This document shows, piece by piece, positions 40,325 to 63,900 of a stretch of 64,000 nt of DNA (its first letter is position 1; each line of letters opens with the position of its first letter). A program made the translations under genes and the position numbers. Origin of the DNA: Pezicula radicicola (Eukaryota; Ascomycota; Leotiomycetes; Helotiales; Dermateaceae); NCBI GenBank assembly GCA_003008705.1, contig PDUO01000030.1:392982-456981 (forward strand), given 5' to 3'. The notes beneath the pieces were generated by a model. That model searched no databases. It had not been told where the DNA came from and worked only from the letters and a program-made list of their open reading frames with translations.

Positions 40325-43134
40325 TCAGTCCAGAATATCTCTATTCTTTGACGTTCTACCAGAAGTAGGTTGTCCCATCTCACCACCCTCTCTGACCTCC
40401 TTATCTACTAGGGCATTGATCTCTTGAATGAGCTCATTACACGCATCATCGTTTGTCTTCTTATTCGACTGCACTGCTTGTTCATTAAACCACCGCATGG
40501 AGCTTAAGCCTAGCGTCGTGGAGGGCTCCATTTTCATTTCATTATCGTATATTGCCCTCCAAGCTATTTCGGCAATTTTATATAGCAGTGTTTTGCACAT
40601 TTCAAGGTTTGTTAACCTTGCTTTGCGTTTTGGCGCAGTTCTCTTGAGATCGGCTCCAAGGAGTGCTCCTCTTCCACGTAGGAATTGTTTCAAATCTTCG
40701 TTGCCTTTCTTGATGGCAATGTCTAGGGCGGTTGACGCATGAAGTCGCCTATTTTTGATATCTTCTATGATTTCGAATAGTCTCGGGGCAGCACTTTGAA
40801 TGTCGCCTATGACTTTGAGGTTTTGGGAAATAATGAACAACATATTTTCTTTCTGTTCTGTCTCTGTTGAACCAGGATATTCATCAACCCAGAAATGGTT
40901 TATATCAATGTTATTGAAAGGGAAGGGAAATTTTATGCGCGCGGGACTAACGTCAAGTAGCTGCTGATTTCGTTCGAGAATGAGTATTTGAAAGGCCTCC
41001 TGGTACAAATCTAAGTCCACCACAGCTGTCGAATTCTGAGAAGCTGTAGCGTTAATATCAGCCCCGTGGTCCAGTAGCAAGCGAACTACCGACAAGTGGC
41101 CATAATTTGAAGCAAGATGCAAAGGCGTCATGACTATTCTGGGGTCATCTGGCCATTCCCATACCTTGAGCTCGGTAATAGCTTCATGTTTCAACAGAAG
41201 TCCAACGATTGCTTCGTTCCCTTCTTTGGAGGCGTAATGCAACGGTGCGTGGGCTATTTCCCCGTCACTCTGGATGTTTGAGCCTTTTTCAATCAAGAAC
41301 TTGGCCACCGAAAAGTTCAGGTTTGAAACTGCCCAGTGAAAGGCTGCACTGCCATTCCGATCTTTCTCCTTGATCGTACTAGGACAGTGCTCAATGAGCA
41401 ACTCAAGCAAGTCTATGCGTCCATAGTTTGCAGCTTGGCGTACGAGACTATGATATAGTTGTGGTCTATCATGTAGAAGCTGGTGGTGGTATGAGGACTC
41501 TCGAAGAAATATTGAAGGTATTCTGATGCCGTGTATGGCCCAGTTCAAAAGCGCATATTGAAAAAATTGTGTAGGGTCGAATACCTCCCAAATCTTCGGT
41601 TTACGGACACTTCCAGTCTTGCATCGGGGATAAATGTTACAAAATTGCGAATCCCAGTCTTTACAGCTTAAGAATCTGCAAAAGTTCTTGAATAGCAAGA
41701 AATTAGCTTTGCCTGCGTCCACATAATAGTCAGACAGATCTGGGTTGTTGGCTAGCTCGTCACTGAGGAGATAATCTTTTGCGGTTTGATGTACTAGGTT
41801 GAGAGTTTTGCTCTTTGGATCCAAGTATAAGAGCGGGATACAACACTTATAGCCATCTTGGAAGTCTTCAACAATATCTTCTGTTGGCACCCAAATTCTT
41901 TCTGTTGTGTCCATTGCCTGAGCCATGGCAAGCTGGTCTAAAGTTACCGGCCTTGGAGAAACGACAACCCACTGGAGAATGAACTGAGCTACCTCTCTGT
42001 GCTGCTCTTGGATATTCTGGAGCATTCGTGCATACACACCCGGCAGGTCAGACGGGAGGCTGGAAAGTTTCGTCTCAATATGGCGTGTTATGAGGACGGT
42101 GTCAAGATCCTTTAAGACGAGTGCTGCCCATAAGAAAGTTCCGCCAAGCCTTTCCGTAAGGGCCTTCTTCAGTCTGTCCACCCACTTCCCGTTCCATTCC
42201 TTGTCCATGACTAATTCCCGTACTTTCACGTCAATATAGTGGTTTAAGTCCTCGTTGATGCTTGCGGAGTCAATGCGTATGGAGAGGTAACCATTAGCTC
42301 GTTGAAGTGTACGAATAATGTCGGTCTCTGGTCGACTTGTTGCAATAACCTTCACATCTTTCTCAGAAACGGCCTCAAGAATATCTTTTAGACTCGATAA
42401 GATCTTCCCCCTAGACGATATGTCGCATTCGTCGAGTGCATCGATGATGATGTATAGTCTTCTGTCTGTTGCTTTAAGAATGGCTATGAGGATGCGCTGC
42501 ATGGCGTCAAAGTTTCTGATCAGTCTTTTGTCCATCTGGGTATAGTCTTGCTCGATGTATGTGAAAAGGTGGTAGTCGTTGTTCATAAGCTGCCACAGGA
42601 GGCCTCGAAGTATCGCAGTTGCTGTGTTCCGTTTGTCGTCCTTATTGTCGCAAAAATAATAGAGAAGTGCTGGGCTTTCTGACTGCAGGCGGATTTCTCC
42701 TTCTAACTCCTTTACGAGGTAGCTAGATATCATTGATTTTCCGATTCCTGGTGCACCAATCAAATGCAGAAATTTTGCCTCCGTGGATTCCTTCCAAGCT
42801 AAGTACTGAGGTTCGTTCTGAATCCAGGTGCAAGTTCCATAGACGCGGTCGCCTTTGGCCCGTTTCATGGCCTTTAGGTCGTCGGAGGGATTCGTGAGAA
42901 AGATGATCTTCATGCATGCGTCGTGCTTCATTTTCCTATCTATGTCTTTCCCTTAAAGCCATTGTTAGCATGGATCATAGTATTGTAGAGCCACTGAACA
43001 CCCGCAAGGAAAATGGGCAGCTTACCTGCGTTTCCTCCATAGTGATAGTGGAAAGCATCTCCCATATGTACTTGTGAGGCATCTCGTGCAGATATGTCAC
43101 GAAAATCATGACCAGCTCTCCTAGAGCCCTCCAT
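40325..43134 (-). CDS. NACHT-ankyrin NLR-like protein
   Basis: Exon 1 43134-43026 and exon 2 42939-40325 (intron GTAAGC...CATAG) give 907 aa. The short first exon carries 'GHDFRDISARDASQVHMGDA', a motif of the type often seen just before NACHT domains in fungal NLRs. Then come Walker A GAPGIGKS (about 98-105), Walker B LYIIIDALDEC (about 198-208) and 'VIATSRPETDI'. A winged-helix-like region is followed by ankyrin repeats (about 520-670; 'PLHYASKEGNEAIVGLLLKH', 'PLHLASNYGHLSVVRLLLDH'). Such proteins act in non-self recognition and regulated cell death. No separate effector domain precedes the NACHT, unless an upstream exon was missed or the short motif is the signalling part. Confidence 0.85.
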
Positions 43135-44327: not shown

Positions 44328-46051
44328 ATGGCACAACGAAAAAGTATCTTGTTTTTCACAAATTCTGACTTTGGACAAGCGAACGTCGTACTGGCTGTAG
44401 CCTACGAGCTGCTTCTTCGAAACGAATTCGACATTCATATCGCATCTTGGACACCCTTGGAATTGCGAGTTATTGAGCTCTCCCAAAAGGTGCAGAATGA
44501 GATTCCCAGCACCACGATCCATCCTATAAAATTTCACACCCTTCCGCTGAACACAATGTTCGACTCGTACGTTAAGAATACTGGCGAAAAGAAGGCTGAT
44601 CTCCCTCATCCACCAGGTGCGAATGGGGCAGAGAGATTTACACAGCTAGCACCTAATGTTCTTGCCGTCTGGGAGCCAGAAGAGCACATTGAGCTCTACG
44701 AGTGGTGTGCGGATCTTGTCAGAAAGTTGAATCCTAGCCTCGTGATTATCGAACCCTTTCTAGGGCCGGCTCTTGATATGGCTAAGACGTTGAAACTAAA
44801 ATATGCTATCTTGAGTCCATGCACTCTGGCTTCAGGCTTGATTCCGGAACAACCTTGGGGTGCTAGGTTCGTAAGCAACATATTTCTTTGTTCTCATGGT
44901 CTCGAAACACTGTCTCACGACTCCGGGAGCATGTCTCAAAGCTCTTACTCTTACTCTTTGGAAAAAACATAGTACTAATTTGTTGAAGTGGAAATACCCT
45001 GCGTAAGACACAGGACCACCAAGCTTTTACATATACTAATCAAGCCCATACAGTCTCTCAACTGGGTTCCGATATCCACTGCCATGGAGCAAAATTCCAG
45101 AGAACTTGTACTGCACGTGGGCAGTGATTAAGTGTCTCTGGCAACCTCGGGTCAAAAATCTCAATGCAGCCAGAAATGCCCATGGCATTTATGGGGCACT
45201 GCCAACACTTACACCTTGGGTTAAAGACGTTCCACACGTCTCCGCTTCGCTTCCCGAAATTGACCTTCCAATGATCATCCCATCCAATGTACATTACTGC
45301 GGGCCTATCCTTCTAGCCACGACACCTATTTCTCAAAGTGATCCAGAACTTCTCAACTGGTTGCAAAAGAAACCAACTATTTTGTTAGCCTTTGGAACAC
45401 ACCATGAAGCTCGTGCTGATGTCGTCCGGGAGATAGCTCTTGGTCTTCGTATACTTCTCGAAGCAAGACCAGATGTCCAAGTTCTTTGGAAATTGAAAGC
45501 AGAAAAACAAGCAGAGGAAGACGACAAACAAACTGTGAATGCAATCTTGAGTAAGGAGCTTGAAGAGACTCGAGTTCGCATTGAGGGATGGTTGAAGGCT
45601 GATCCGGTTGCAATAATGGAAAGTGGAAATATTGTATGTTCTGTGCACCACGGAGGTGCAAACTCTTACTTCGGGAGTTGCTGGTAATACTGTTAGTCTA
45701 TTTGAATGTGGCTAAATACTAAATTCTACTAGGGCTGGTATTCCTCAAGTCATACTTGCGCCCTGGTACGATACTTATGACTACGCAACACGTGTCGAAT
45801 ATCTTGGAATTGGGGTGTATGGAAACGATAGAGCTGGCCATGAAGCAGTCGTCGACGTTTCCAATTATAAAGCCCCGCTTATGATCGACGGTGAGGAGTT
45901 TGGTGCAGCACTTCTGAAAGCTGTTGGTAAGGAGAAAGGTGGTGCTGAGGCGATGAGGAAAAGGGCTAGCGAATTAGGCGAGGTGTGTCGGAAAAGTGGA
46001 GGAAGAGTGCAAGCTGCTAAGATTTTCAGTGATTTAGCACTGAACGGATAA
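44328..46051 (+). CDS. UDP-glycosyltransferase, GT1 family
   Basis: Exons 44328-44866, 44973-45002 (30 nt), 45054-45683 and 45733-46051 encode 505 aa. The N-terminal half starts KSILFFTNSDFGQANVVLAV, the acceptor-binding Rossmann half; the micro-exon contributes TNLLKWKYPA. The C-terminal donor-binding half has VHHGGANSYFGSCWAGIPQV and 'ILAPWYDTYDYATRVEYLGIG', the fungal version of the UGT signature with the conserved HGG. Members glycosylate lipids or secondary metabolites in the cytosol with UDP-sugars. A hydrophobic C-terminal anchor is not visible. Splicing uses GTTCGT, GTAAGA and GTAATA donors, the last being weak. No biosynthetic partner is adjacent, so the substrate is unknown. Confidence 0.88.
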
Positions 46052-47966
46052 TTATTTGTGTTAGGAAGAACATAGGTCCGATTGAAAATTGAGCGCTTAG
46101 GCTCAAAGGAACTCTGCACTGCGAACTTCTTGGTATTTGATTCATGTATCGTTTTTATGCAACTAAAATTAAGAATAATATGATATGACAACGTTTCCTT
46201 CAGCTAGGGCTATTTTCAAAGAGTACATTTAATCCTAATATGTATGTTTCAGAATAGCTTCTGTTTCATAAATATGGATAAAATATAGCTACCACTGGTC
46301 CAACAAGTGAGTTTATGACTACATTAAGCGAACAGCTCTTCAACACTTAAGTCAAGTAATGGCGAAGTTGTTGCGATGCCTGTTGGAATATTCCTGGGGC
46401 AAGAGTGCCCGTTCTCGACTTTGTACGGCTGGATTGAAAATGGAAAATTGTAGGCTGTCTGTGATGGAAAAAGAGGAAGTCAAGGAGAAGTTGTCTGGGC
46501 GTGAGAAGGGTCAGAAGGCTACCTGAATCATTTGTACTGAGAATGCTATGTACTTTCGTCGGGCGAACATGAATACCTAGGTTAAAGGAGTAGTAGGGTA
46601 GCTTGGGGAACAGTTCACACTGTAGTAGTCAGAACATGCCACTGAGATAGAGAAAAAAGACATCAAGAACAGCTGAAATTGCTAACAGATACCAAGGCAT
46701 TATCAAGTAATTTTCTTTCTCTTGTGCTTTGCATGAAGTTAGTAATCTGGCTGCTATTGCTCAGTGCTAATCGCCCTCGGCTCACCTTTGGCTCAGTGTA
46801 CACACTTCACTAGCCTGAGCAGCCTGAGCAGCCTGAGCAATATTCCTGACATTATCACGGCCTTTAATTTCATTCTCGTCAGGTTTTAACAGCGATGCTC
46901 AAGGACGCTAAACAAGTTTCACCCGAAAATGGACACTTTCCAAAACATATCTAATGCATTGCTTACGGTGTAAGTTGACTCAATATGAAATGCTCCTCCT
47001 ACGAAGTAGCGCAGTTTCAGTAGCAGAAGTATCTCTATTTACTGTAGTCAGCTAATGTGCTGGGATGAGATACTCGTCCGCTGATCGACCTTAGATGTTT
47101 CATACTAAAAGAGTGTGCTGCAAGGAATTTTCAGTAACGAATGTAAGAGTCTTCCAACTCTATAAAGAGTTCTAAACTTAGAAGGTACAAAAACAACAGT
47201 TATATTTAAAATTAAAATTCTCTAGCTATGCTGGCTCTTAACTCTATATGCACCGCTAGTTGTTTGACTAGCATATCTAGTTCGTTGCCTATAATTAGAG
47301 TATCAATTGAGAGATTCTCGTATCTGGGAATATCACGGAGAGAAATAGAATGAAGTGCTTGAAGCCTTGGTTAAGGCCTGCAAGGGAAAGTCTACTTTAG
47401 TCGTATACGTAGCGAAGTTCTATTATGTGGTACGTTAGCTTTTGTTACAATTTATCAGCTGGGTGTAAATGAACCTCTATTTACCTCGCTTAATGTTGGA
47501 AGGGATTTGCTACGCCAGTTAAAACACTTAGAATTAAAAGACTTATTCTATGATAATTGAAATCTAGAACTAGTGACATGGAACGAATACAACTTTCTCT
47601 CTAAATCAAACAACCCTAGCTAATAGAGAGTTGTGAATCCGATTTCCTAATGGGCAAGGACGAAAGAGAGAAGAAAAGAAGAAGAAAAAGTTCATTTTCA
47701 CTTCTCTTGTCAAACGACTTTACTCTATCACTCTTGTAGAACTGAAGATAATTTTATATTCTGTTCTGTACTTCCCACTCGTTCTTAACAACTAGGCCCT
47801 TAAACTTTACCTATCTCCAATCTATGATTAAGGAAGTGAATTGACCAAATGTTACCAATCATGTTAGGTATACCAGGTACCATTTAATTGATAAAAAGAA
47901 TAATACATTGAACAATACACTCTTGCTAATATTTCTTAAATTTTACATTTGTTTACTTAAGTTCAG
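46052..47966. other. Intergenic, no gene seen
   Basis: 1.9 kb AT-rich, without supported exons. A 9-bp AGCCTGAGC unit is repeated three times at 46812-46838. Confidence 0.5.
46812..46838. repeat. (AGCCTGAGC)3 tandem repeat
   Basis: Three perfect 9-bp units. Confidence 0.85.
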
Positions 47967-48835
47967 TCAGGCAAAGGGTAGTTCCTTAGGTACCCCATAA
48001 TCATCACAGCTAGCAAACCTCCACGCTCCTTTCAACTGGGGGACATATACCCATCGAAAGATTTGATGAACAAACCATGGGAACGGAGGAAATCTCACCC
48101 CATGGATTCCAGACTCGTATGTGGTATCCGAATTCGTCATTAAGAACGGCACTTCACGGACCTGATAAAGTGCATTAATATTAGTCAACTTCATGAGGAA
48201 GATGGGTTTGGCTTACTCTATCAGCAACTTTCTTAGAGTGTTGAGCCATCGTTTTGCCTAACAAATTCCAGTCAATCCCGTCATCCTTCTCGAGACTCTC
48301 AAGTAGCACAATCTCATTGTTCAAATGCGATTCCAGCCTCGGCCCAAAATCATCAATAATCTGGTTCAACTTCTCGCCGTCGTAATCTTGCCCATTATCC
48401 TTCACGCCACTAACAAATTCATCAAATGCCAAGAACCCAGGCAGAAAACTCTCATGCTCATCATGATTTTTCGCGGCGACTCCTTTCTCCTGACATTGTT
48501 CCTCGAGAAGTGGAAAATATACGGTCTCTTCGGTCATGTGGTGCGAGTGAAGAGTGCAAGACCAAGCATCACAATACAGCATGAAGTCGGCAATGTCTTT
48601 TGGGTCCTTGATATTGGGCGCCTGGAGATAGATACAGTTCAGTCCTCGGAAAAGGATGTTGTGGATCAGTGCCATCTCAGAGGCATTTCGTGATGCTCCC
48701 GATTCGGGTTTGCCCTAGGCTCTGTTAGAGGTGTTTTGCATACAATAGACAATCAGATCAAATCACATTCAAAGCAGCTCGGGGAGTAGAAAGGAGTTTG
48801 AATGGACCGTCGGCCCACTTCTTATCAGCTGACAT
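47967..48835 (-). CDS. Hemerythrin-like HHE-domain protein
   Basis: Exons 48835-48767, 48714-48217 and 48161-47967 give 253 aa in phase. The start MSADKKWADGPFKLLSTPR, then GKPESGASRNASEMALIHN, matches the usual N-terminus of the fungal family. Metal-ligand histidines are seen in ALIHN, LHSHHMTEETVYFPLLEE, 'KNHDEHESFLPG' and 'LESHLNNEIVLLESL', the four-helix HHE cation-binding pattern; a C-terminal segment 'FPPFPWFVHQIFRWVYVPQLK' is also typical. The protein is cytosolic and binds iron or other cations; its physiological role in fungi is not defined. The first donor (GTGATT) is weak, so the exon 1-2 junction is less certain than the rest. It borders the RiPP-like cluster but I see no reason to include it. 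Confidence 0.85.
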
Positions 48836-50007
48836 AATGATGTGCGTGGGGAACAAGGAAAGACAACTTTGAAGAGGATGGCGCACGATATTGAATATAC
48901 TTTGTAGATGAGTATGTATGTAGTAGACATATAACTCCCAATGAAGCGGCTGGTATTATAAATTATTTTGTTTAAAAAATGAGGAGGTCATCACCTGATT
49001 TCTCGCCTGACCATCTAAAGTGAGTTGCAAATGATAGCGGCGTGATTGGTGGAGACTTCTGTTTCTCGCCACCGATTAATGATTACATCGCCGAATAAGC
49101 CGGCACTTGGAGCGATCGAGACTCTTAAAGTACAGGCTATTCCGACCGCCTTCAGACTCACCTGCTCTGCATCTTGTGGCCTGACCATTTGGTACTCACC
49201 TTATCACCCTCACTTAGCGATACTAACCCTAACTCGCCGCATAAAACTAATAAAAGTAGCCTCCCGTCCTCAACAGAGATGGATACCGTTGAGGTTAGGA
49301 TTACATATTTTAAGTTTTAAAATAATGCACTTATCCTATAGTTTTTTGCTACAGTACTAATACGCCAAATGCCTGAACTACTACCCTAACCAATTTGGAT
49401 GGCAAGGTAGTCGGAATGGTTACTTGTCTTAGGTGTTTAAAGCAATAGAAAAATGCTGGATAGCTTGAATATCATACTTTCTATAAAGGACGGGGCGGGG
49501 TGCTCGCTTCCTAACTTGGATTAAGTACGGAAGACTTGATGACACCCATGAAGCCCCGAGGAGAGGCAACTATATTGAGGTAAGTACAGGAACCAATCTA
49601 ACAGACAACGTAGTCTGTTGACAAAAAAGCGCATTTAAACGATGATGATTTAATTTTCAACAGGAATGCATACCGACTCTAGATATACAACCATCAAAGC
49701 TTGTCCAACATAATGATTGTATGTAGTATCCCCGCAAATCCGTCAAAATCCACAGCCAAAAACATACCAAAACCATACCGTCAAAACTTGTCCAATATAA
49801 TGATTGTATGCAATATCTCCGTAAAACCGTCAAAACCCACCTCCAACCCCATTCCACTTCACGTCGAACAACGTCGGGGCCCACCTTAAATGCGCTATTA
49901 ATACACATAGATGGAAGGGGTGAGTATCACTAACAGGACTGAAGCTATGGCTAGACCTTGAGCAAAGTTTTGCAACATAAGCTGGTGTTGAGAAGTGGTT
50001 TTCACTT
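48836..50007. other. Intergenic with an 87-bp direct duplication
   Basis: No supported gene between the hemerythrin-like gene and the peptide precursor. It contains two diverged 67-bp direct copies (49691-49757 and 49778-49844) and, earlier, short CCTAACC-like tracts near 49215. Confidence 0.5.
49691..49844. repeat. Two direct repeats with 87-bp period
   Basis: Copies at 49691-49757 and 49778-49844 share the pattern CC(A/G)TCAAA(G/A)CTTGTCC and TAATGATTGTATG and differ almost only by C/T and G/A transitions, as expected after mild RIP. On the minus strand the period equals 29 codons and stays open in one frame. Confidence 0.65.
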
Positions 50008-50883
50008 CTAACACTATATTAAGAGTTAAATATGGCAGTTTAGACAGGGGTGTGTTACTCACACTGAATATATAAGAGATTAGTTGTCAAAGTCCGCTAA
50101 ATTAATGACGTCGCAGTTCGGCTTAACTGGGTACTTACTCTAACAAAATGAATTAGTTGAGTATAACTAGGCGAACACCTTTTTTACTTACTCTGTATTG
50201 AAGTATAGTCAGCATAAAGCAAGGCAAATCAAGGGGTATGGGAATACACTCACGCTATAAAGCGCTGTTAATAACGCTACGAATTTAAGCTAAGGTCATC
50301 ACATTTTACTTACTCTGCGCGTTGTATGAGCGGCGTACTACAGCTTTATACAGTTGGTTGACTTACACTGTAAACGTCGAGTGTCAGAATACATAACAAT
50401 TCGCCAAAAATGCTAGGGTAGTTACATACGCTACGGAAATAACTCATTTTAGTTCTAGGAGCTCTTGTTCTTTCTAAGTCTTTTTATAACTCTGATATTT
50501 AACACTTACCCTGAGATACATATTAGCAATTTCTTGACCCGTCAACGTAGCTTAACCTTAGGCTTACTCTGTGTTTTGTAAGTAAGTTGATATTTGATTG
50601 ATTAGATTATAAAGGTAAGGATAGGCGAATAACCCACACTGATTGGATGTGAAATCAGCATCATGATATCGAAGTAGAATGAATTATAGAGGGTGCACTT
50701 ACTCTTCACATTGTTGCAACTTGTAATACAAAGCACTCTTAGTATTTAAAGTATATTATGTCGGGTTATACGTACAGCAGCCCAATCTTCATCGACTTCC
50801 GCCCAAGCAGGGCGCGAGTCTGACGACAAAGAAGAAACAGTCAGGAAGAATGCCACGCCTATGAAAAATTGCGCGAGACGCAT
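50008..50883 (-). CDS. Secreted RiPP-like precursor peptide with ten single-nucleotide exons
   Basis: Thirteen exons: 50883-50776, 50719-50703, then one base each at 50638, 50568, 50510, 50430, 50367, 50314, 50254, 50192, 50139 and 50063, then 50013-50008 (TGT TAG). The coding total is 141 nt, or 46 aa. Exon 1 encodes a signal peptide (MRLAQFFIGVAFFLTVSSLS) and an acidic linker ending AWAEVDEDWAA, with a plausible cleavage after AWA. Exon 2 adds LQQCE plus GA; the single bases T,A,G,C,T,A,C,A,A,T complete D, S, Y, N, and the last exon gives Cys-stop. All twelve introns are 49-79 nt with GTRNGY-type donors, branch-like CTRAY sequences and AG acceptors, YAG in all but the first (ACAAG). It is divergent from a UstYa gene, which supports a RiPP precursor with C-terminal core CEDSYNC. 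An alternative first acceptor is discussed in the findings. Confidence 0.75.
50063..50638 (-). other. Array of ten 1-nt exons separated by short introns
   Basis: On the minus strand each junction reads YAG-N-GTRNGY with exactly one base between acceptor and next donor: CAG-T-GTGGGT, CAG-A-GTAAGC, CAG-G-GTAAGT, TAG-C-GTATGT, CAG-T-GTAAGT, CAG-A-GTAAGT, TAG-C-GTGAGT, CAG-A-GTAAGT, TAG-A-GTAAGT and CAG-T-GTGAGT. Intron lengths from the one before the array to the one after it are 64, 69, 57, 79, 62, 52, 59, 61, 52, 75 and 49 nt. Ten consecutive spacings of one cannot be chance. Confidence 0.85.
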
Positions 50884-51286
50884 TTTTGCTGTGACGAGGA
50901 ATGTTAATAAAGCAATAAAATCTGTAAATGTATGTAGGTTTCAGCAATGATGAATGCTCACAACCAAGAGAATTTAGATTCTAGAGAAGCGGCTGCAGCC
51001 TTTAAACCAGTGCGTGAGATTTAGTTCCACATTTTGAGACAGACATAAACAGTTTTGTTGCTGAAGCCATTTCGTTTCGTCCTTCCATACTTAGTCAGCT
51101 CGAGTCGCCCTTCCAATTTCGCATTGGCATTAGTGGGTAGAGTGACGTGGGAGGCATTAAGCGAGTCGCCGACGTCTAGTAACCATTGAAAGGCCAAGTA
51201 CTTTGTAAATGGAGGGTTTGGTTCTTTTTCATGCAACGAAGTGTTTGTTGAGCCGATATTGTCTTTCCCTCCGTATTTCAGGCAAA
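50884..51286. promoter_or_regulatory. Divergent promoter, peptide precursor / UstYa gene
   Basis: 403 bp shared by the two divergent cluster genes. Visible elements: TTTAAA at 51001, an AGCGGCTGCAGCC tract at 50989-51001, and TATTTCAG just before the UstYa ATG that could be the end of a 5'-UTR intron. Co-expression of precursor and oxidase is the expected consequence. Confidence 0.5.
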
Positions 51287-52426
51287 ATGTCCTGGATTCC
51301 TCAACTTCAGTATCGTCGTGTTGCATCGGATGAAGGTGACAGCAAGAAACAGAATGAGAATGAAGGAGAGACCCCTTTGCTTGAGGGAGTTGAGGGTCAT
51401 CATCAAGCAGAGAAGTCATATAAATCCTATTTGAAAACTGCTTTGCCCTGGGTCCTATCCACGTTTCTCTTATGTGTGATACTTCTTTGGTCTTTTCGGT
51501 CAGATTGCAACTGTCGTGGAACATTGGCAACGTTTGAGTCTGGCTTCAACACTGATCTCGGTAGGGAATTCAATTTCTTTACTGTAATATCCTCTACGAA
51601 CTCTTCTTGCTAATCAATAGCTTTCAGAGTCAGCGAAATCGGAAATCGAAATTGTTCAGACGCGTTTTTATGGGGCCATCAACTACGATCAAAATGGTAC
51701 TTTCTATATCACAAAGTCCCCGGACGAACCTCCATATGTTGGGCATCCATCAAAGGAAATTGATAAGGCATGGTACGATCTATTAAACTGTTAAGTAACT
51801 ACCTTCCCCTACTGCAAGCTGCTCTCAAATTGACATTTAGTTCATAGATAGATACGTGGCTTTAACAGATGCCGAAGCTTTCGAGATTGAGAACCCGGAT
51901 TACTGGGGGCCCAAAGATCACGGGTCCTTTTGGGCATCGTAAGTCCATTGCACCACTTTCAGTTGAATCATCTACTTACGGAGATAGTCCTGATGTTTTG
52001 CATACATTACACTGTGTGGTAAGATATCTTTGTCGTTCGCTTTCGTCATGAAACTAAATTTAGAATCAGAACTATCTCCGAAAGTCGTTCAACACAGAGT
52101 ATTACCCTAATATTCTCGTCGACAAAGTCCACCAGCCTACTCATCGGATGCATATAGGTGAGTTTTGCTATACATTCAAACATCTCCCGTCTAACCTTCT
52201 TTGAGACCATTGCCTGGAGATGATACGGCAAAACATACAATGCCACGGCGATCTCACACCAATACCACGGCCTTTCAGAGGAGGTGCAGGATGGCTTGCA
52301 GATGGGAATCGAGCTCACACATGTCGCAACTTTCGCCGCATTCCGCAGTGGACGAAGCTGAGATGGGATACCGATAGATTAGAAACTGAGAATCCTTACA
52401 AATCGTCGAATGTGGGTACTAACTGA
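51287..52426 (+). CDS. UstYa-like (DUF3328) oxidase, RiPP-associated
   Basis: Exons 51287-51560, 51628-51789, 51848-51938, 51988-52018, 52064-52157 and 52206-52426 join in phase to 290 aa. A cytosolic N-terminus (MSWIPQLQYRRVASDEGDS) is followed by one membrane helix (LPWVLSTFLLCVILLWSF) and a lumenal domain with both DUF3328 signatures: 'DVLHTLHCV' (HxxHC) and 'HRMHIDHCLEMIRQNIQC' (HxxHC), with YYP between them. UstYa proteins are membrane oxidases that hydroxylate or cyclise ribosomal peptides (ustiloxin, asperipin, phomopsin, cyclochlorotine routes). It is divergent from the precursor gene. The GTTAAG donor (51790) and GAG acceptor (52205) are non-ideal, but reading frame and family fit support them. 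Confidence 0.9.
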
Positions 52427-52817
52427 AGAACTAAAGTCATGATTGATTATTGGAGCAATGTATATGGCATTATAATAATTAGTAAGGTCATTAGACATAG
52501 AAAATTTCACAAGTAGCCAGGAACAGTGGTACGTAGTATGATGATTTTTGTATATAATTCCCGTGTTGGCTGGTTAAATTCTAGAAAACATCATTTTCCC
52601 TCGTTGCAAGCAATCTACCTTCAAAGTCATAAGACTGGCATTGGCAGGAAACGTGACAGCGAATGATAATGAATGTGAGAACACCAAAAAGCGAATCAAT
52701 CCGGTGATGTACTGCATTTGATAAATTGTAAAAGCTGCAATATTTACTCTTAGTGGTAGTTTGCAATATTATAGGTGGTGATGTTCTTACTTGTAGAGTA
52801 TGCAAATTAATCCAAGG
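52427..52817. other. Intergenic, no gene seen
   Basis: 391 bp between convergent 3' ends of the two UstYa-like genes. Confidence 0.5.
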
Positions 52818-53415
52818 TCAGACAACTTTACAGGTAAGGAATCCTGGATTGATTGTGGAGTGTATCATGTCCAAGTGCTCTGGCCTTCTTTCAGCAAAGA
52901 GCACCAACATTTTGGAGCAGTGCAATGTGTGGTCCAAATTTGTGATCAAGTTATCTCGTGGGGCTCCATTGAGTAAAGCCCTCTGCAGCTTCTGCCATAG
53001 CATGAGGCAATGAAACATGTGATCTCTTGCTGTTCCATAGTACTCATCGAGCTCCATCATCTCCTCAAGGGTCAACACCTCTTTCCCGGATAAGTCTCGG
53101 TATCCCTGCCAAGTTGGAGTGCTTTTGTACTCCACTAGTAGATCGTGGTCGATACAAGGCTTGGGAGTCCAGCCGATCAGCAAAGGATCAAACTCACATC
53201 CCAATGCCCGAGCCTCAGCTGACGAGTTGCCGCACGTAAGAATTTGGGAATACTCTGCTGTATTGCTTGCAAGACCGTGTGATATGTGATAAACTGTGAT
53301 GGCAAGGATCCAAACAATGGAAGTACAAGTAATGCTAATCAGGTGCCCATGTCGGTGACCGTGAGTGTAATGGCTGATGGCTGTACCAGTCTTTAGCTGA
53401 TTTTTGAAAGTTCAT
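52818..53415 (-). CDS. Second UstYa/UstYb-like (DUF3328) protein, N-terminus unresolved
   Basis: From about 53340 down to 52818 one frame is open: a membrane helix (TSIVWILAITVYHISHG), then SSAEARALGCEFDPLLIGWT, PKPCIDHDLLVEY, 'ARDHMFHCLMLWQKLQRAL', 'NLDHTLHCSKMLVLF' and FLTCKVV at the end. HMFHC and HTLHC are the two DUF3328 histidine-cysteine motifs. No ATG lies in that frame. A fitting start (ATG 53415, MNFQKSAKDW) lies in another frame; an intron 53386-53335 (GTACAG...GATTAG) would join them into 181 aa, or a one-base frameshift has occurred, since the other frame also carries a family-like segment before the helix. It probably works with the neighbouring UstYa on the same peptide. Confidence 0.72.
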
Positions 53416-53443
53416 AAATCGAATATCACAAACTGTCGACTCA

Positions 53444-54369
53444 TTGCCGGCACAATCTAGGAAGAAAATAAGGGATGCCTTCCGGGGATTGAGGCAGCCT
53501 ACTCCTTGCAGACGCAATAGCATACCTTCACAAGAAGCGTTACGAGCAATCTGCAGAACGACGAGTGTTGAATTGCCCGCCTCACTTACGGCGGTCTATG
53601 CTGAGTGGCGACGACACCCCCATTCATTTTTGACGTCCCATGGGTTCAAAGTAGACAGCGGAGATTTATCCCACATGTACAGAGAAATGAAGAAATTGGA
53701 GACGAAACGGAAGTCGGACACAGTAATCTGGAGATATTTTACTCTCTTTTTTCATGACCTGATGCAATTAATTGGAGGTGGAAGAACGTATTTAGTGCAG
53801 AAACTTCAACATAAGTTGATGGAGGCTATTGATAGCCCGGGGATGCTTCCGGAAGCTCCTAAGCACATTCAAGGAAATCTCAAACGATGGGCTAGTGCGG
53901 GGCTAAGATATCATAATATCACGACGAGGCTGGGAGATGGAGCCTTGATGCTTCTTCCGCAACAAGTAACGGATAATATGTGAGTTGGCACGTCTTTGGG
54001 GTGCGGGATTTGACTAACAGACATCGCTATAGTTGGGAAAATAGGTTACCTATGAAAGGTCCCTGCTTTGATACTGCAATAACACATCTTCTTGGATTGG
54101 GTATCTGTGATATCGCCAAGAATATCGGGGCTGACACGCTGGGATCAGAAGTTCGGAGGGTGGTATTGGAACCATTCCACCAACAGTCCTTAAACGGGCC
54201 AGTGGATTATGACATTTCTACCGACCGTCAAGTGCGAAATGGTAGGACTCATCCAGGTCCAACTACTGAGAACTATTCCGAGGTAGGACAATATAGGATC
54301 GCATTGCAAGACCCTATGCGTCGCGACACGACTGCATGGAAGTCGGCGAGGAAGTATGAGCCAGCTTAG
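53444..54369 (+). CDS. Unrecognised protein inside the RiPP-like cluster
   Basis: Two exons, up to 53979 and 54033-54369 (GTGAGT...CTATAG), give a frame of up to 290 residues. I do not recognise a domain. Conserved-looking stretches: TTSVELPASLTAVYAEWRRH, DTVIWRYFTLFFHDLMQLIG, NLKRWASAGLRYHNITTRLG and RLPMKGPCFDTAITHLLGLG. No signal peptide or membrane helix is visible, so it is probably cytosolic or nuclear. The 5' end is unresolved: the frame is open to 53444 but the first in-frame ATG is 53675, inside conserved-looking sequence. An upstream exon, if any, would overlap the UstYb-like gene on the other strand. It may be truncated. Confidence 0.5.
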
Positions 54370-54735
54370 CGAAGATATGACTAAATGATATCATTCGACT
54401 AGAGATAGGTTTGAGTTTCTTCATGAAAGATCTATTGGCAAGCTTAATTTGACGTGAATAAGATTTTAGGCATAGCCAAATTCAACTCTGTTGCTACGTC
54501 TAATGACTTGTCCGGGAATGTGATACTAGTAAGATCGAGAGACCAGTAAGCACGGAAATTTGTCATCACCTTGCAGGTCGCTGGTGATACCCCCGAAGGA
54601 TGGAGGAGAAATTGAAGATTCTATGGGCTCAGGATAAAGAGTCTGTTGGCTTGTAATTATCTTTCAAGAATTACATATAAATTTCACCTACGTTGAGCAA
54701 CGAGAAAATTGGTTTGAAGCAGCAGGGTCGGCACA
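54370..54735. other. Intergenic, promoter of the hydroxylase gene
   Basis: 366 bp, no exon seen. Confidence 0.45.
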
Positions 54736-55545
54736 ATGGCATTTGGTAAAGTACATATACTTACTGTTATGCTTGGCATTATGATTATTTTGTACCGGCG
54801 TTCTTCGTCCATTCTATGGGAACCTCATCATTCAGAGGCTCAACCATTTGTTCGAATTCTCAATTACGACCCGTTAATAATGCACATCGAAAACTTCATC
54901 TCATTAGAAGAAGCTGACTATCTTCTCAGACTTGGGTAAACAAATTATTCTTTATTCGAAAAGGCGAAGACTGATTTAAACAGTGAACCTCTGTTTCATC
55001 CATCCTCTCTTTTATCTGCGAATGGTACTTTACATATGTCATCGGATCGAACAAGCTCAACAGTTATTCCACCACCCCAAGATCCTACGATCAGTCAGAT
55101 TCTGGCAAGAGCGGCGGAAGTCCAGGGCTTTACAAGCCTAGACGAAGAATTCGAGGTTCAATTAACTCGCTACCACCGTGACCAAGGTGTTTTTCCACAC
55201 ACAGATTGGTTTGGGCTGGAACCTTTCATGGGGTGGGATCGTGTTACCACTTTTTTTGTGATATTGAAAGCAACTTGTGCGCAGTGTGGCACCCGCTTCC
55301 CTAAATTACGTATAAACTGTTCTGAGAAGGTTCCTAAGATAAGAGAAATAGTGGATTGTGACGATTCGGAGGGAATTACTGTGAAGGCCATCCCAGGAAG
55401 TGCTACGTTCTGGAGGAACCTCCACCTTGACGGAACCGGAGACGAGAGAACATTACACCTCGGGCTTCCACCCGAAGACGGCACAAAAGTTGGAATGAAC
55501 ATTTGGACTATTATTAAACCAGACTATATTAGCTACTTTTTTTAA
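54736..55545 (+). CDS. Membrane-anchored prolyl 4-hydroxylase-like 2OG-Fe(II) dioxygenase
   Basis: Exons 54736-54935 and 54984-55545 (GTAAAC...AACAG) encode 253 aa. One N-terminal membrane helix (VHILTVMLGIMIILY) precedes the catalytic domain. Motifs: VQLTRYHRDQGVFPHTDWFG holds the HxD iron ligands; the distal part 'IPGSATFWRNLHLDGTGD...TLHLGLPPEDGTKVGMNIW' holds the second His and the Lys that binds 2-oxoglutarate; a CxxC pair (CAQCGTRFP) is typical of the fungal branch. Such enzymes hydroxylate peptidyl proline or related residues and are found in several fungal peptide clusters. The predicted core has no proline, so another residue or another substrate would be needed. Confidence 0.87.
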
Positions 55546-56014
55546 TGCATTCTTTCTGCATTATCTCGCGCAACTGTGGCGCTATTGTAGTAAAGTTATT
55601 TTCTTTCGATTTTATATAAAGATGAAGCACTGAAGTTAAAATCAGCTACACTTACCTTCAACCTAAAATATTACCATTGTTACAGTTCTATTGCTACCTA
55701 ATCGTACAAATAAAGTAAGCACCCTTACTAATGTTAGTGCATAGCCTATCCCTTTGTGCGTCAAACGGCTTTGTGTACAAGGATTCGACACCCCAACAAT
55801 TTCATCACCAAAAAGAATATGTATTTTGCTGTGCGCGTCCTCGTGGTCCGTGTCGAAGCCGTTTGACGTACAAAGGGATTGGGCTATATTAATAATAATA
55901 TACGCACTGAGTTCAACCTTTGATGCCCATTTATATTATCAACTATCAGACGAAGGATATCAGTTTTTTGTAAGTACTTAATCTAAACGTCGAGTTTCAC
56001 ATTCATTACTTGAA
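55546..56014. promoter_or_regulatory. Upstream region of the cluster regulator, with inserted inverted repeat
   Basis: 470 bp. The central part is the 148-bp inverted-repeat element listed separately; the 130 bp after it would be the core promoter of the Zn2Cys6 gene. Confidence 0.45.
55741..55888. mobile_element. 148-bp MITE-like inverted-repeat element
   Basis: The left arm (ATAGCCTATCCCTTTGTGCG then TCAAACGGCTT) pairs with the right arm, which reads CGAAGCCGTTTGACGTACAA then AGGGATTGGGCTAT; inner segments TTCGACAC and GTGTCGAA extend the pairing. The ends ATAGCC...GGCTAT are perfect terminal inverted repeats, and the element has no coding capacity. Size and structure suit a non-autonomous DNA transposon (MITE); the family is not identified. 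Confidence 0.65.
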
Positions 56015-57977
56015 ATGGCTACCGAGAGTCGAAGTTACAATGGCTGTTGGACCTGTAGACTGAGGAAAAAGAAATGTGACGAGAAACGACCTGTCTGCGT
56101 GGAATGCAGCATGCTGGGCATTGAATGCCATGGATTTGGTAAACGCCCGTCATGGATGGACCGCGGGCCAAACCAGAGGATAGAAACACTCAAAGTCAAA
56201 AAGAGGGTCGCAGAGAGAACGGCGGAGAAAAGAATGGAGCAAATTCACCAAAATTATGCTTCACCAATAAAACATCAAAAGAATGATAGCCGGAGACAGG
56301 AGGCTCCTAGTCATAGTGTCGACCAGGTGCTAATTACTACTTATCACACCTCTCTATCCCAAGAGAAACCAGTTCATGGTACTGAGACATATCTCTCAGG
56401 TTGCAAAGGCTTTCATCCTACTTCATTCTCGGCAGTACAGCCCTCTCTAGAAACCCGCGATCCCAGTATATGGCTGGAAAATATTGGTTCCTTCACACCA
56501 CACAACATGCTCCCTCTTCTAAACGCCGAATTGAATCCGATTGAGAAAGACATATCTTTACCTAACTTTGACTGGGGTTTGCCATCTCTTTCCGCTCTTG
56601 ATAGCCCTTTTCAATCTGATACTTGCTCCTCGGTAACAGCAAAACCGCCTGGGGTCAACCACGTTCAGTCTGGGAAGGAATCAAGATTGATGGTAGCCGA
56701 CATTGAAGAAGCCCTTCTGCTAGCTCATTACTTGGAAGAAGTATTCAACTGGCAATTCCAATTTAGGTCCTCATATGGTGGACTTAAGAAAGGCTATATG
56801 TTATGGTTAATTTCCCAGTCTCGGCCGTTGTATCTTGCGAGCCTCGCTTTAAGCGACTCATATCAAAGTGTCTCGAGACAGGCGCGACAAAAGTCTGGAA
56901 CTTTCACAGAACCCTCATTTCGATACAACCTAGCTCTGGAGTCATTTAACCTCGCTTTGCCAGCCAATAGCAGTACAGAGGATCTGGCGTTGCTGGCTTC
57001 TGCTATTAACTTCATTCACCTTGGGGTATTTTTGCTCCCAGTCATAATTTGAACATAATTTCATCTGCTAACGGCAATGCCAGATTTTACACTATGGAAC
57101 AATTGATTGGAGTGCAAATCTCCAGATAGCTACGTCAATAATATCTCCCTGGATTCTTGCACCGTCCAACCGTCCTCAGGTCAAAAGTGTCGGAGAACAA
57201 GCGAATCTAGAATAAAAGTCGACCGAGTTCTTAATTGCTTGGATCATCCATTTGGATGTGATTTCTAGTCTAATACGACAGCCACTTCCAACTCTGTGCG
57301 GAAATTACATAATCACCTTGCAGAATTCAGCTTCTAGAATCGACATGGAGTCTGTTAATGGATGTCAGAATTGGGTTTACGTCGCCATCTTACAGATTTA
57401 TGAACTACGCTACTGGAAGAAAAGAACGAAAACTTTCAGTCTGTGGGAATTAGTTTCCAAGGCCAGCTCGATCCAACAGAGTCTGGAGGAGAATATTGCT
57501 TCAAATATGAAGCGGCTCAATCAGAGCAAGCATGACTTAGAGCAGAGGCTGGACCACTCTGAATTGACTAGCCGTGTCAAGTATGACTATCACATATGCA
57601 CAATCACTCATGTTTATGCATGTTCGGCTTCGGTTTTGCTGGAAGTGGTTGTCTCGGGCTTCCATCCGGGACTTCAGGAGATGAAAGAAAAAGTTGATCG
57701 GGCACTCAAAACCTATGAATACATAGACGATCCTAGTTTCCTGCGTATGTTTCGCTGGCCACTATGTGTTACTGGATGTATGTCTCAACCAAGGCAGCAA
57801 GACTTCTTACGCAACCTTATGTCATTCCAAAGAGCTAGTGATATGAGGAATTTGCATGATGTTCTAGAGATTCTTGAGAAGGTTTGGGAAATGACAGCAA
57901 ATGACGGATTTGGAGAAGATGGCTTTGATTATACAAAGCTTGAAAGCCTTATCTCACGAAACATCTTTATAGTATAG
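56015..57977 (+). pseudogene. Zn2Cys6 transcription factor with an in-frame TAA (cluster regulator?)
   Basis: Exon 1 56015-57025 and exon 2 57084-57977 (intron GTATTT...GCCAG) would encode about 634 codons. The zinc cluster is complete: 'NGCWTCRLRKKKCDEKRPVC' followed by VECSMLGIECHGFG (ligands C11, C14, C21, C28, C31, C38). The fungal_trans_2-like region follows (ADIEEALLLAHYLEEVFNWQ onward). At 57213-57215 a TAA interrupts the frame at about codon 381, between SVGEQANLE and KSTEFLIAWIIHLDV; both sides are conserved-looking and in the same frame. Only a poor intron (GTCAAA...GACCGAG) could remove it. Either the gene is inactivated or it makes a shortened protein. Its position suggests it controlled the RiPP-like cluster. 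Confidence 0.72.
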
Positions 57978-60900
57978 CTTAATAGTATTATTGTTGAATG
58001 AAATGACTACTAAGGCAAGCGTGTGGGTGGCAAAGATGTTGTATTCTGTAAGAAATAAGTGTTTAAGAAGAGCCTACTTGCGGGGACGGTCTCATGAATA
58101 TTCCCATTTGATTCAACGATTATTAATTCATTAATTTGGTTACTGTCGGTATAATATCTATACCGATTTATATTAGTCGGGATCCTGTCAACTACTCAAC
58201 GGGCAACCTAGTGAGGTATTACAGTAGGGTGCTTATTTGAGTATATTGACAATGGATGATTCCTTCTATCTAATAGAAACGAGTGGTTTTATATAGGAAC
58301 CTACCAATTGGGCTAATCCTAATTAGGTTAGGCTTATATATTCTATGGCTCTGATTAGCTGAAATAATAAAGGAAATATAATGAATATAATTACTAGATA
58401 TCGATGTTCTAATACTAGGCCTACTTTAGAATCATTGGACCTATAGGTTATATTTAATTAAAGGTATTAATTGATATTAATATTAGTCTATTATCCCTCT
58501 CTTCCTTCTGTATCCCTATCCACTAGTTTTCCTTCTCTCCCTTCCCTATCTCACTACTCCCGGTAGCTCTCTCTATCTATCCTATCTCTTCTAGACTAAT
58601 ATAGTTTATATCGATGAAGTATTTCAGAGTATTACAGGCCTTAGTCTTTATTATAGTATCTATAGAATTAGTCTTACTATTGATCTACTTGATTTCTACT
58701 ATTTCCCTCCTTTTATATACCTAGTATAAATATATAATATTGATTATTAATTACTTTTTCTAGGTTATACTAAGTTTAACTAGATAGTTAAAGAGTAATT
58801 TCAAGTTAGTATATATAATTAATAAGATTATTATTAATAGTACCTTATTAAGAGTTAATTTAATTATAACTATAATATTAAATTTATATACTAGTTTATA
58901 TAATTTAGTAGTTAAAATACTTCTAGTAACCCTCTTATACTTAATTAATAACTAGTAGATAATATTAATCTTATCTATAGTATTTATAAGTATAATTATA
59001 TATCTAATTTATAATAAGAGGTTTAAATTATTAGTAAAGGAGGTATTAGTAAAAGTAATTAATTTTAGAGTTTTTATATTAAGTTTAATAAACTTAAGAC
59101 CTTTAGATAGATTATTAATCTACTATTATAGATATTAATTTAAAGTTTTTATATTAGTTTCCTTAGAGTTAGTTATTTAGATAGTAAATAATAAATTAAA
59201 AGTAGTCTCTAACTAATAAATAAAAGTAATATAGACTCTATAAATTCTTTAAACTATATATTAATCCTTAGATATAAGACCTTAGTAAATTATACCTCTA
59301 GAGCTTATTAATATAATAACTTTAGTAATTTTAATAATACTAAGATTCTAGTATTATTATTATTAGATAAGTATAATTCTATTTAGAACTATATAGATTA
59401 TATTATTATTGAATTTAAGTAGTTTCTCTAGAGTTAATTACTTATATTCCTTAGTTAAAAACTTAGCTTTATAGAGTTCTCTTTTCTCTAGGGTAGTGAA
59501 TTTATTATTTATAAGGAATAGTATATTATTAGTTTATAAACTAATAACTTTAAATAGTAGTATAGTACTACTATAGAGTAGGTATAGATTATATAAGGAC
59601 TATTCTATAGTTATTTTTATAATATAGTAGAAATAGTAGATCTTAAACTAGTAGTTTCTAATTTCTAATACTTTATATAGTAGTTTTATAACTTTTAGAA
59701 TATAGTCTAAACTAAGTCTAAGTATAGTTTCTAACTCCTTTAGTAGATATATATAAAATTTATAATTAAGCTTAGTTATAGATTATATATAGACTTAAGA
59801 GATATTATATAAGTAAAGGTAAGTCTAGGAATTATCTAGAAGAGTAGTAAGTATAAGGAGTATTTATTAACTTATATATTAGATAATTAGAGATTATATT
59901 AAAATAATTTACTTTTTTATATTATTATAAGCTTATATAACTAACCTTAACTTTTCGAAAGTTTATATAGTTCTCTAGTATTTTATATTATTAATAAAAT
60001 AAGAGTTAAAGAGATATATTATTAGAGGAATATCTATAAACTTAGTAATTTTAAAGACTCCTTTTTCTAGAAGTTTAATAATCTCTTTTTAATATAATAT
60101 TATAAACTAGAGCTCCTATATATTAATATTATCTTAAATAAAGATAGTAAGGTTTACTATAGTTATTAATAGAAGTAGATTCTTATATAAGTACCCTCGG
60201 CCTTATTATAATAGTACTATTATAGTTATTTCCTCTATTAGATAGATTAAATTAATTAATTAATTTTAAGATATTTTACTAGTTTAAGATATTTTACTAG
60301 TTTAGGGTATTTTACTAAAGGTATATTTAATAGAGGTAGTTATTAGGATTACTAGAGTAAGTATAGATAGAACTAATTATACTATAATAACTTAATTAAT
60401 AGATTAATAATAATACTATAGAATAGAAATAAATACTATAATATAAGTAGTCTCTAGTTACTTAGCTTACTTATAGAACCTTAAGGGTTTTATATTATAT
60501 TCCTAGTATTAGTAACTCTTTCTTTTATTATAAAGTAGACTATTATCCCTTAATTATAATAACTAGTAATTTTTATAATATTAGATATATTAATAGTTAG
60601 ATTCTATAATATATAATATAATAATTATAAGATTTTATAGTATTAATAAGTAATAGAAAGATTTCTAAAGAACTTCCTCTTTTAAATTAAACTAGAATTA
60701 AACTCTAATTATTAGTTTAAATAACTATTAAATAATCTTAGATAATTATTTTAAAATAGACTAAGTTTAGACTATAATTATTTATAAAAGAAATATTTTT
60801 CTCTTATTTCCTTTATTTAAAAATATCTCTAATAATACTATCTTTTATAAATCTTTTCTAACTTTCTTTCTTCTTAACTTCTTCTTTTTTAATCTTTATT

Positions 60901-63900
60901 AATTAAATTATTCTTTTTTAAGATAAGGATAGTTTTATCTTATTCTATAGTATTATTAATAATTCTATAGAATTATCTTCTTTATCTTTTATATCCTTAT
61001 CTTCTATATCTTTACTTTCTATAATATTATAGCTCCTTTTATAAAGATTCTATAAATAGTATAGTAGGTTATTACTAGAGATATTAATAATTATCTATTC
61101 TCTACTAATACTAATAGTAATTACTAGATTCTATAAAATATAATTATTCCTATAGTCTTAAATATACTCCTCTTTTAAGTTAATTAGAATAAATATTAGT
61201 TTACTATCTTTACTTATACTTAGGGTATTCTAGATAATAATTATTATTACTATAATTATAATAATTATTATATCTTTATAAATACTATTATCTTCTTATA
61301 TACTAGATTAAATAATTAATATATTATATATAAATATATAAATTACTACTTTTAAGTAGATAGTATAGATTATAAAGTTATCCTTATTAATCCTATATAA
61401 GGAAATACCTTATTACTAGTTCTAGCTCTAGTTCCTACTACTACTATAACCTCTACTCTTATAACTTCTATTCCTACTCCTATAGTACTAGTTCCTAGTA
61501 GATAAGCTACTAGTAGTATTAGTTATAATATAGGTTATAGTATAGATAGATCTTCTAGTAATACTATAGTTTATAGTAGTTATTAAGATAATCTTATATA
61601 GTATAATATTAGTTAAGTTACTAAGTTAATTAGAGATAATTATAATACTTATATATTATATCTATCTCTTCTAAAGAAGGATAGTAGATCTAGTAATCTA
61701 TATAAAGAAGGATTATATAACTTCTTCTCTTAGAAGAATACTCTATAGTATACTACTTATATTAGTATTAAGAAGATATTAAATAATCTATAGATAGAGA
61801 AGACTTAATTCTTTACTTACTAGTAGGGTTATTATAATAGAGATAATAATAATAATCCTTTTAGTAGTTCTTCTAGAGATCCTTCTAGTAGTAGTAGTAA
61901 ACTATTTTAGTTTATATTTATTTATTAATTATTTTATAGAATAATTTTATAGAATAGTTTAGAGTATTTTTATAGATTAGCTTTCTAGTAGTATTTTCTA
62001 AAGGTATTTCTATAGGTATTATAAATCTTATAATATAGGTTTTTATATTTTATAAGGTATTTTTATAAATATTTAATAGATTTTCTACTTTATATAATAG
62101 TCTATAGTATAGTTTTTATAATAGATTAACTAAAATAACTAATATAGAATAATAAAATAAATTAAAAATATATCTATAATATAAAATACTATAAACCTAA
62201 ACTTTATAATATAACTCCTAGTTATTAATTTAAGTTATAATAGTCTTTTATCCTCTTTCTATCTAATCTTTAACTCTTACTTAAAGTTAGTTTATATTAA
62301 TAAACTTCTTAAGAGTTTTATTTAGACTTAGTTTTATTATTATATCTATAAGATTATCTTAGCTATTAATCTATTAGATCTCTTATAGTTCTTTCCTTTT
62401 ATAGGATTATTATAATACTATAATATTAATTATTAAATACTTTTCTTTAATTATTCTAAGTTTAATAAGATATTTATAAAGTAAGTAAGAGTCTATATAA
62501 ACAATAGTTAGAATAACTATAAGGCTTAGCTAATCTATAATTAATTTAATAGTAGTATTAATAGTAATTACTATATCTATACCTTCTACTATTCTATAGA
62601 TCTCTAATACTAGTATACTTTAGATAACTCTTTTACTTTTTATAGAACTCTAATATACTAGGTTTCTCTTAATTTTAAAGTATTCTTATTCTATAGTTTT
62701 ATTTATAATAATAATTTTATAACTAAGTTAAAAGCTAAGATCCTTATTATTTATAAATAATCTATCTATAAATATAAAGAGCTTTATAATTAGTAAATTA
62801 ATTAAAATATAAGTAATTCTATAGTCTAGGTTCTATATTTACTAATTAAGTCTCTTATTTAGGTTTATAATATCCTCTTTAGTAGGATTCTAGGTTTATA
62901 TAACTATAGAGAGGTTATAAATAGTTTCTAGTTAGTAGATTATAATAATATATACTCCCTAGGCTTATTACTTAGTATATTAGTATTAAAGACCTAATTC
63001 TAAGAATTCTATAATATCTATTTCTATAATTTAAATAAGTTTAATTTTCTTATCTTACTCTTTTTAATATAACTAGATAGTATCTCCTTATTTCTATAGA
63101 ATATATCTATTAAAAATAAATAATATTTCTAATATTAGTATCTCTTTTTACTTAGTTATAAATTTAGCTTTCTTAAGCTCTTTTTTCTTTAATCCTATAA
63201 ATTTCTCTAATACTATAATTAGAGTATTATATATCTATATACTAACTATCCTAAATATATCCTTATCTTCTATAATTATTACTAGTAGATAATAATTATA
63301 GATAGATATTATTATTAATAGCTTCTTTTTATAATACTTATAATATATAGTTTACTAATAGATTCTAACTTTAGGGATTTTATATAATAGTTATAAAATA
63401 ACTATAATTATATTTAATAGATATTAGTATTATAGTTCTATAAATAACTTTATTAGAATAAGTTACTATAGGAATATAATTAATTAAATATATACCTAAG
63501 TAATATTATAAAGTTATATTTAGATATTCAAGTCTAGAATTTAGATTAAAGAAGGGGCTAGTATAATTATAACTCTCTAACTAGCTCTCTAGATTATTAG
63601 AGATTAGATAAGAATAACTTCTTTTCCTTTATTATTATATACTTAGATTATAAGTCTTGATTTCTTATATAGAGTATCTATAGCTTTATCTTTAACTTTA
63701 TTTATAAGTTTAAACTTAAAAATTTAAATTCCTATATACTTTTTAGAGTTATATTCTATAAAACTAAATACTTCTCTTATAATTAAACTATTAATTTCCT
63801 ACTTTTAGAATTCCTTAAATAGTATTCTAGGAGTTATAATAACTCCTTTCTTCTATAGTTTTAATAAAAGCTCTTTATTAGTTTACTCTTTTATAATTAT

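Follow-up and report, generated by a model that had tools for sequence, protein, structure and literature searches.

Genes and features at the locus

We analysed a 64,000-nucleotide stretch of Pezicula radicicola contig PDUO01000030.1 (hereafter the window), in which a UstYa-family gene and a short candidate gene stand divergently with their starts 403 bp apart. The UstYa-family gene (51287..52426, plus strand; PF11807, DUF3328) has five predicted introns, and its predicted protein carries two HxxHC motifs. The candidate gene, on the minus strand from 50883 to 50008, contains ten successive splice-like junctions with exactly one base between the acceptor of one predicted intron and the donor of the next; we refer to it as the array gene.

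The array gene would begin with a 108-nt exon 1 (50776..50883), which carries the start codon and encodes an N-terminus that is signal-peptide-like by hydropathy only. Predicted intron 1 (56 nt, 50720..50775, GTACGT...CAAG) ends in a weak acceptor, AAG, and is followed by a predicted 17-nt exon 2 (50703..50719), whose last base, an A at 50703, itself comes after AAG and is a possible one-base exon. From there on, predicted introns alternate with predicted one-base exons located by the junction scan. Intron 2 (64 nt, 50639..50702) precedes a T at 50638, intron 3 (69 nt, 50569..50637) an A at 50568, intron 4 (57 nt, 50511..50567) a G at 50510, intron 5 (79 nt, 50431..50509) a C at 50430 and intron 6 (62 nt, 50368..50429) a T at 50367. 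The second half of the series runs from intron 7 (52 nt, 50315..50366) and an A at 50314, through intron 8 (59 nt, 50255..50313) and a C at 50254, intron 9 (61 nt, 50193..50253) and an A at 50192, and intron 10 (52 nt, 50140..50191) and an A at 50139, to intron 11 (75 nt, 50064..50138) and a T at 50063. Intron 12 (49 nt, 50014..50062) leads into the last exon, whose coding part (50008..50013) consists of a Cys codon and a stop codon. An alternative acceptor six bases on would yield a peptide ending in Lys.

Just downstream of the array gene, a degenerate repeated motif (GTTTTGACGG... ATACAATCATTAT) was seen by eye at 49700-49880; the tandem-repeat finder did not detect it. Elsewhere in the window, an 875-residue open frame of the NLR-like kind, with NACHT-type and ankyrin-repeat parts, occupies 40328-42952 on the minus strand, and dense AT-rich short tandem repeats lie near the window end (60265-63494). 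Neither a tRNA nor, at gathering score, a known RNA family was found in the window.

A run of junctions with single-base spacing

The sequence-only reading of this DNA had placed ten consecutive YAG-N-GTRNGY junctions on the minus strand between 50638 and 50063, each enclosing one base, and all ten were recovered at the coordinates first claimed. The junctions are 53-80 nt apart. Over the whole window, YAG-N-GTRNGY matches the minus strand 13 times, with ten of the matches inside this 576-nt stretch.

The exactness of the single-base spacing is the most striking feature of the array. When junctions were counted at spacings of 0-15 in the 721 nt around it, the minus strand gave ten with a spacing of 1 and a single one with a spacing of 11, all other spacings being empty, and the plus strand of the same stretch gave at most one at any spacing. 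The ten observed compare with 0.057 junctions of spacing 1 expected for the 721-nt stretch from the rest of the window, and with a mean of 0.13 (maximum 2) in 5000 dinucleotide-preserving shuffles. The array is thus real and far beyond chance. Twelve donor-like hexamers occur in the 721-nt stretch, ten of them after YAG-N and one after AAG-A. Since the array donors were partly picked by the same pattern that revealed the array, their strength is not independent evidence.

Intron features of the array segments

The array introns, meaning those that come after exon 2, measure 49-79 nt. These sizes are ordinary for this genome, where five introns in the adjacent UstYa gene measure 48-67 nt and eight in a pyruvate carboxylase gene measure 49-77 nt.

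We next consider branch motifs, which provide an independent test since the array was found without them. Motifs were counted 8-22 nt before the 3' end of each intron and compared with 2000 shuffles. Strict CTRAY occurs in 6 of the 12 introns (shuffle mean 1.01, reached in 1/2000), YTRAY in 8 (mean 2.36, reached in 2/2000) and YTNAY in 10 (mean 4.78, reached in 4/2000). Ahead of all YAG triplets in the window, on both strands, YTRAY was found in 548 of 3802 cases. Two introns without YTRAY carry related words, namely CTAAA at 18 nt in intron 5 and CTCAT at 12 nt in intron 7. Two observations count against the intron reading: internal YAG triplets are present in half of the introns (6/12), and the AG-free stretch before the acceptor is only 8 and 10 nt long in two of them. 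The claim that each unit is a complete fungal intron thus held for donors, acceptors and the 49-79 nt sizes, but only loosely for a CTRAY-like branch sequence in every unit, given the count of strict motifs above.

The similarity of one intron to another is not above that of shuffles, and the tandem-repeat finder detected no tandem repeat at 48000-53000. The introns are therefore either long-standing or the product of independent gains; the array is no recent satellite. When overlapping windows of three junctions were aligned, each stretch paired mainly with its own overlap. A recent tandem duplication of introns was also considered and dropped in view of their mutual dissimilarity.

In each unit, YAG is followed by one base and then by an intact GTRNGY. 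The usual stwintron pattern does not apply, as had been argued earlier, because the donors are intact before splicing. Taken as DNA, the stretch is well supported as a series of complete introns with one-base exons predicted between them.

Predicted peptide and reading frame

When exon 1, exon 2 and the ten bases are joined to the six coding bases that open the last exon, the 141-nt spliced coding sequence that had been forecast is reproduced. The predicted peptide has 46 residues, a hydrophobic N-terminus and a C-terminal C-x5-C. In this full join the ten bases complete an Asp codon and supply all of the Ser, Tyr and Asn codons, each of which is divided over three predicted exons, and the last exon then adds Cys and the stop.

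We also read the frames of incompletely joined forms. In 9 of 10 cases, omission of one array base leads to an open frame about 60 residues longer, and the single two-base omission tried opens a different frame with a hydrophobic end. With one intron retained, the product does not exceed 58 residues in 10 of 12 cases; the remaining two have 99 and 126. Since forms that skip a base also keep long open frames, coding potential alone is no proof of full inclusion. It should be noted that exon 2 is uncertain, given that intron 1 ends in AAG.

The peptide had no Pfam match, and a large protein search, in which hits must share five-residue words with the query, gave no candidate. Within its own genome, no further match appeared at E values up to 10.

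Search for other arrays in the same genome

A second array was sought in the genome with five fully written ten-letter junction words, for which 420 of 683 places were among the matches listed. Genome matches were compared with those of the reversed word, giving 142 against 131 for CAGAGTAAGT (100 among the matches listed), 74 against 101 for CAGTGTAAGT, 71 against 93 for CAGCGTAAGT and 75 against 136 for CAGGGTAAGT (all listed for these three), and 321 against 232 for TAGAGTAAGT (100 among the matches listed). Thus, four of the five words are at, below or barely above their reversed controls, and TAGAGTAAGT is above, partly via repeats.

Among the matches listed, same-strand neighbours within 300 nt were seen by eye at the array itself, at places on another contig (C3) and at one pair on a third (C19). 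On C3, TAGAGTAAGT recurs on the plus strand over 26511-27654 at multiples of 126 nt, and the word places at 27393-27645 are spaced 126 nt, a satellite-like arrangement. The C19 pair (8573 and 8808) was rejected as a second array, since no further one-base junction was read between its members.

PF11807 has undergone a large expansion in this genome, with 62 exon-level matches. We scanned 30 of these 62 as loci with ~1.5 kb on each side (101,799 bases), and a run of one-base junctions occurred only at L042, the locus of the window itself. At four other loci (L025, L039, L040 and L047), isolated junction words close to UstYa matches proved on reading not to form arrays.

As a background, 20 stretches of 8,010 bases (160 kb) around the first 20 places of CAGAGTAAGT were scanned, which yielded two pairs of one-base junctions, in L007 and L014, and a mixed pair in L008. 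The L007 pair falls in a gene that we take, from its sequence, to be pyruvate carboxylase; one junction lies inside an intron and the other at the end of a 32-nt exon. Three successive exons of 21, 8 and 12 nt are predicted in the same gene (minus strand, about 4571-3665). In the part of the genome covered by the five junction words, the 30 of 62 UstYa matches and the 160 kb of background, no second array was seen.

The UstYa-family neighbourhood

The UstYa-family gene adjoining the array gene reads, with its introns removed, as a full-length family member of 288 residues, which matches PF11807 with 131.3 bits over profile positions 8-218 of 220. Three database matches were obtained for this protein, the best being an unnamed Microthyrium microscopicum protein with 34% identity, and a search for a related solved structure found none. 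A close paralogue in its own genome was discarded as a candidate, the best match beyond its own locus reaching 46 bits and 34% identity.

Further frames surround this gene. An open frame on the minus strand (52818..53411) has two HxxHC motifs by reading and possibly encodes a second UstYa-like protein; it has no Pfam match, and its one homologue is without a functional name. A frame with a hemerythrin domain lies nearby at 48184-48714, a sub-threshold match to 2OG-oxygenase at 54940-55542, and a Zn-cluster frame at 55982-57049, followed by a fungal transcription-factor domain at 57216-57974.

A hydropathy scan of 46000-56500 returned seven short hydrophobic starts. Leaving aside antisense starts inside the UstYa gene, none lies closer to the start of that gene than that of the array gene. 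The idea of a repeat-type precursor in the vicinity was dropped after the local scan.

The arrangement resembles that of dikaritin-type UstYa clusters in that a UstYa-family gene adjoins a short gene with a signal-peptide-like start. Unlike in those clusters, the array peptide contains neither repeated cores nor, by reading of its 46 residues, a dibasic Kex2 pair. Because these are missing, we have not filed the array gene as a dikaritin precursor. A study of lichen clusters describes UstY genes with no repeated precursor beside them and raises a single core as a possibility (PMC12048977). As a weak suggestion, a small UstYa-type peptide cluster may have the array peptide as its substrate or precursor.

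A more specific version would make the gene product a UstYa-modified ribosomal precursor, with a C-terminal Ser-Tyr-Asn core assembled from ten (possibly eleven) one-nucleotide exons by strictly sequential splicing. We regard this as conceivable but rather doubtful. If it were true, the spliceosome, and not contiguous DNA, would spell the product.

Proposed splicing and alternative explanations

We consider it likely that splicing joins the ten single bases of the array as consecutive one-nucleotide exons, which would encode part of a predicted secreted peptide of 46 residues. As judged from the DNA, consecutive one-base exons are the best reading by a wide margin. Under this reading, the array gene would be transcribed, and each short intron would be recognised as a unit by intron definition. 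Since an acceptor and the next donor are one base apart, neighbouring introns probably could not be committed simultaneously and would leave the transcript in turn. At each step exon 2 would grow by one base, in the order T-A-G-C-T-A-C-A-A-T, so that base-by-base joining would complete the Asp codon, build the Ser, Tyr and Asn codons and finally join the Cys codon and the stop. By the logic that applies to a single such exon, ten in a row would need a non-overlapping series of removals.

The main competitor is an alternative-splicing generator, in which the number of included bases would vary and its remainder modulo 3 would pick a short or a longer C-terminus, in the manner of secreted micro-exon genes. 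The extensions of about 60 residues reached by omitting one base in 9 of 10 cases, together with the hydrophobic-ending frame reached by omitting two, agree with such a device. On the other hand, skipping one one-base exon would need an intron of 112-142 nt (the sum of the predicted lengths), which exceeds those in the array gene, the UstYa gene and the pyruvate carboxylase gene, and the short introns of the genes read here favour the pairing of each donor with its own acceptor. The extensions also lead, by eye, towards the degenerate repeat region. We therefore hold this alternative to be unlikely. Small exons, for their part, are tolerated in the same genome, as indicated by the 8-nt and 12-nt exons predicted in a row in the pyruvate carboxylase gene.

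It is still less probable that a single intron of 689 nt (50702-50014) is removed, whole or stepwise, with the junction pairs acting as stepping points and their bases lost or irrelevant. A direct joining of exon 2 to the last exon does leave a frame of about 100 residues open. Classical stepping points, as in recursive splicing, have a spacing of 0, and a YAG directly followed by GTRNGY occurs 0 times in the 721-nt stretch; nor would such an intron give any reason for a spacing of exactly one base at all ten pairs, or for branch motifs unit by unit. Slightly lower again we place a version with eleven one-base exons, in which intron 1 would end at the AAG before 50703, exon 2 would shrink to one A, and a different frame would yield a longer protein. 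The donor at 50702 indeed follows AAG-A (AAG-A-GTAAGT) with the same one-base offset, and the frame does not close for about another 60 residues; against this, the nearer AAG would be bypassed although it lies 19 nt after a CTAAG branch-like motif, and the protein would read into the degenerate repeat region, as judged by eye. Chance, a repeat or an assembly artefact comes last and is very improbable: TAGAGTAAGT does recur in the satellite-like spacing on C3, but the shuffles never exceeded two junctions, the surrounding 48000-53000 gave no tandem repeat, and the introns are mutually dissimilar.

If the reading of ten consecutive one-nucleotide exons is true, intron definition alone would carry splicing through a run of ten with almost no exon sequence. 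The order of neighbouring splicing steps would then be directly testable, each intermediate lying one base from the next. Moreover, short genes for secreted peptides could escape standard gene finders, which would bear on the precursors reported as missing beside UstY genes in lichens (PMC12048977).

Comparison with known systems

Isolated one-nucleotide exons have precedents. The earlier mention of an isolated 1-nt exon in plant APC11 is borne out in print: the single-nucleotide exons of plant APC11 and VPS55 are shown by RNA, conserved in plants and present once per gene (PMC4674806, PMC8831610). The VPS55 donors are given there as GTRAGT. In soybean APC11, the one-base exon escaped an aligner that had not been given the introns as annotation (PMC8831610). 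For Arabidopsis APC11, the model preferred by the authors is intron definition, with the introns taken out step by step, and they report that it made no difference which base the exon contained (PMC4674806). As in these cases, the acceptor and the donor at each array junction are both complete and flank a single base, the acceptor upstream and the donor downstream. A difference is that APC11 and VPS55 have a single conserved exon of this kind, whereas ten are predicted here in succession, in a short gene.

A closer relative in terms of organism is CYP621A of Fusarium, which has a single G exon within a conserved motif, conserved in many species and supported by RNA reads; its authors count it as the second case and as the first from a fungal gene (PMC12940212). 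Both cases concern a nuclear gene of a filamentous fungus, with a one-base exon between short introns, but CYP621A has one conserved exon against the ten predicted here. Mitochondrial cases of one-base exons are also in print, such as that in PMC5436844.

Stwintrons are fungal introns that need removal in consecutive reactions, and in the [D1,2] type an internal intron splits the donor of the outer intron (PMC12403724). Consecutive removal is also predicted for the array, but every array donor is intact before splicing. Secreted micro-exon genes (MEGs) of schistosomes and bicycle genes of aphids resemble the array gene in their short exons and in encoding secreted, fast-diverging proteins with few relatives. 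MEG exons measure 3-81 bp and are separated by long introns, in contrast to the one-base predicted exons and 49-79 nt introns of the array gene (PMC10526429, PMC9168663).

Searches of the open-licence PubMed Central literature gave no run of one-nucleotide exons, and the nuclear cases found there are isolated ones (APC11, VPS55 and CYP621A), in contrast to the ten predicted in succession in the P. radicicola gene.
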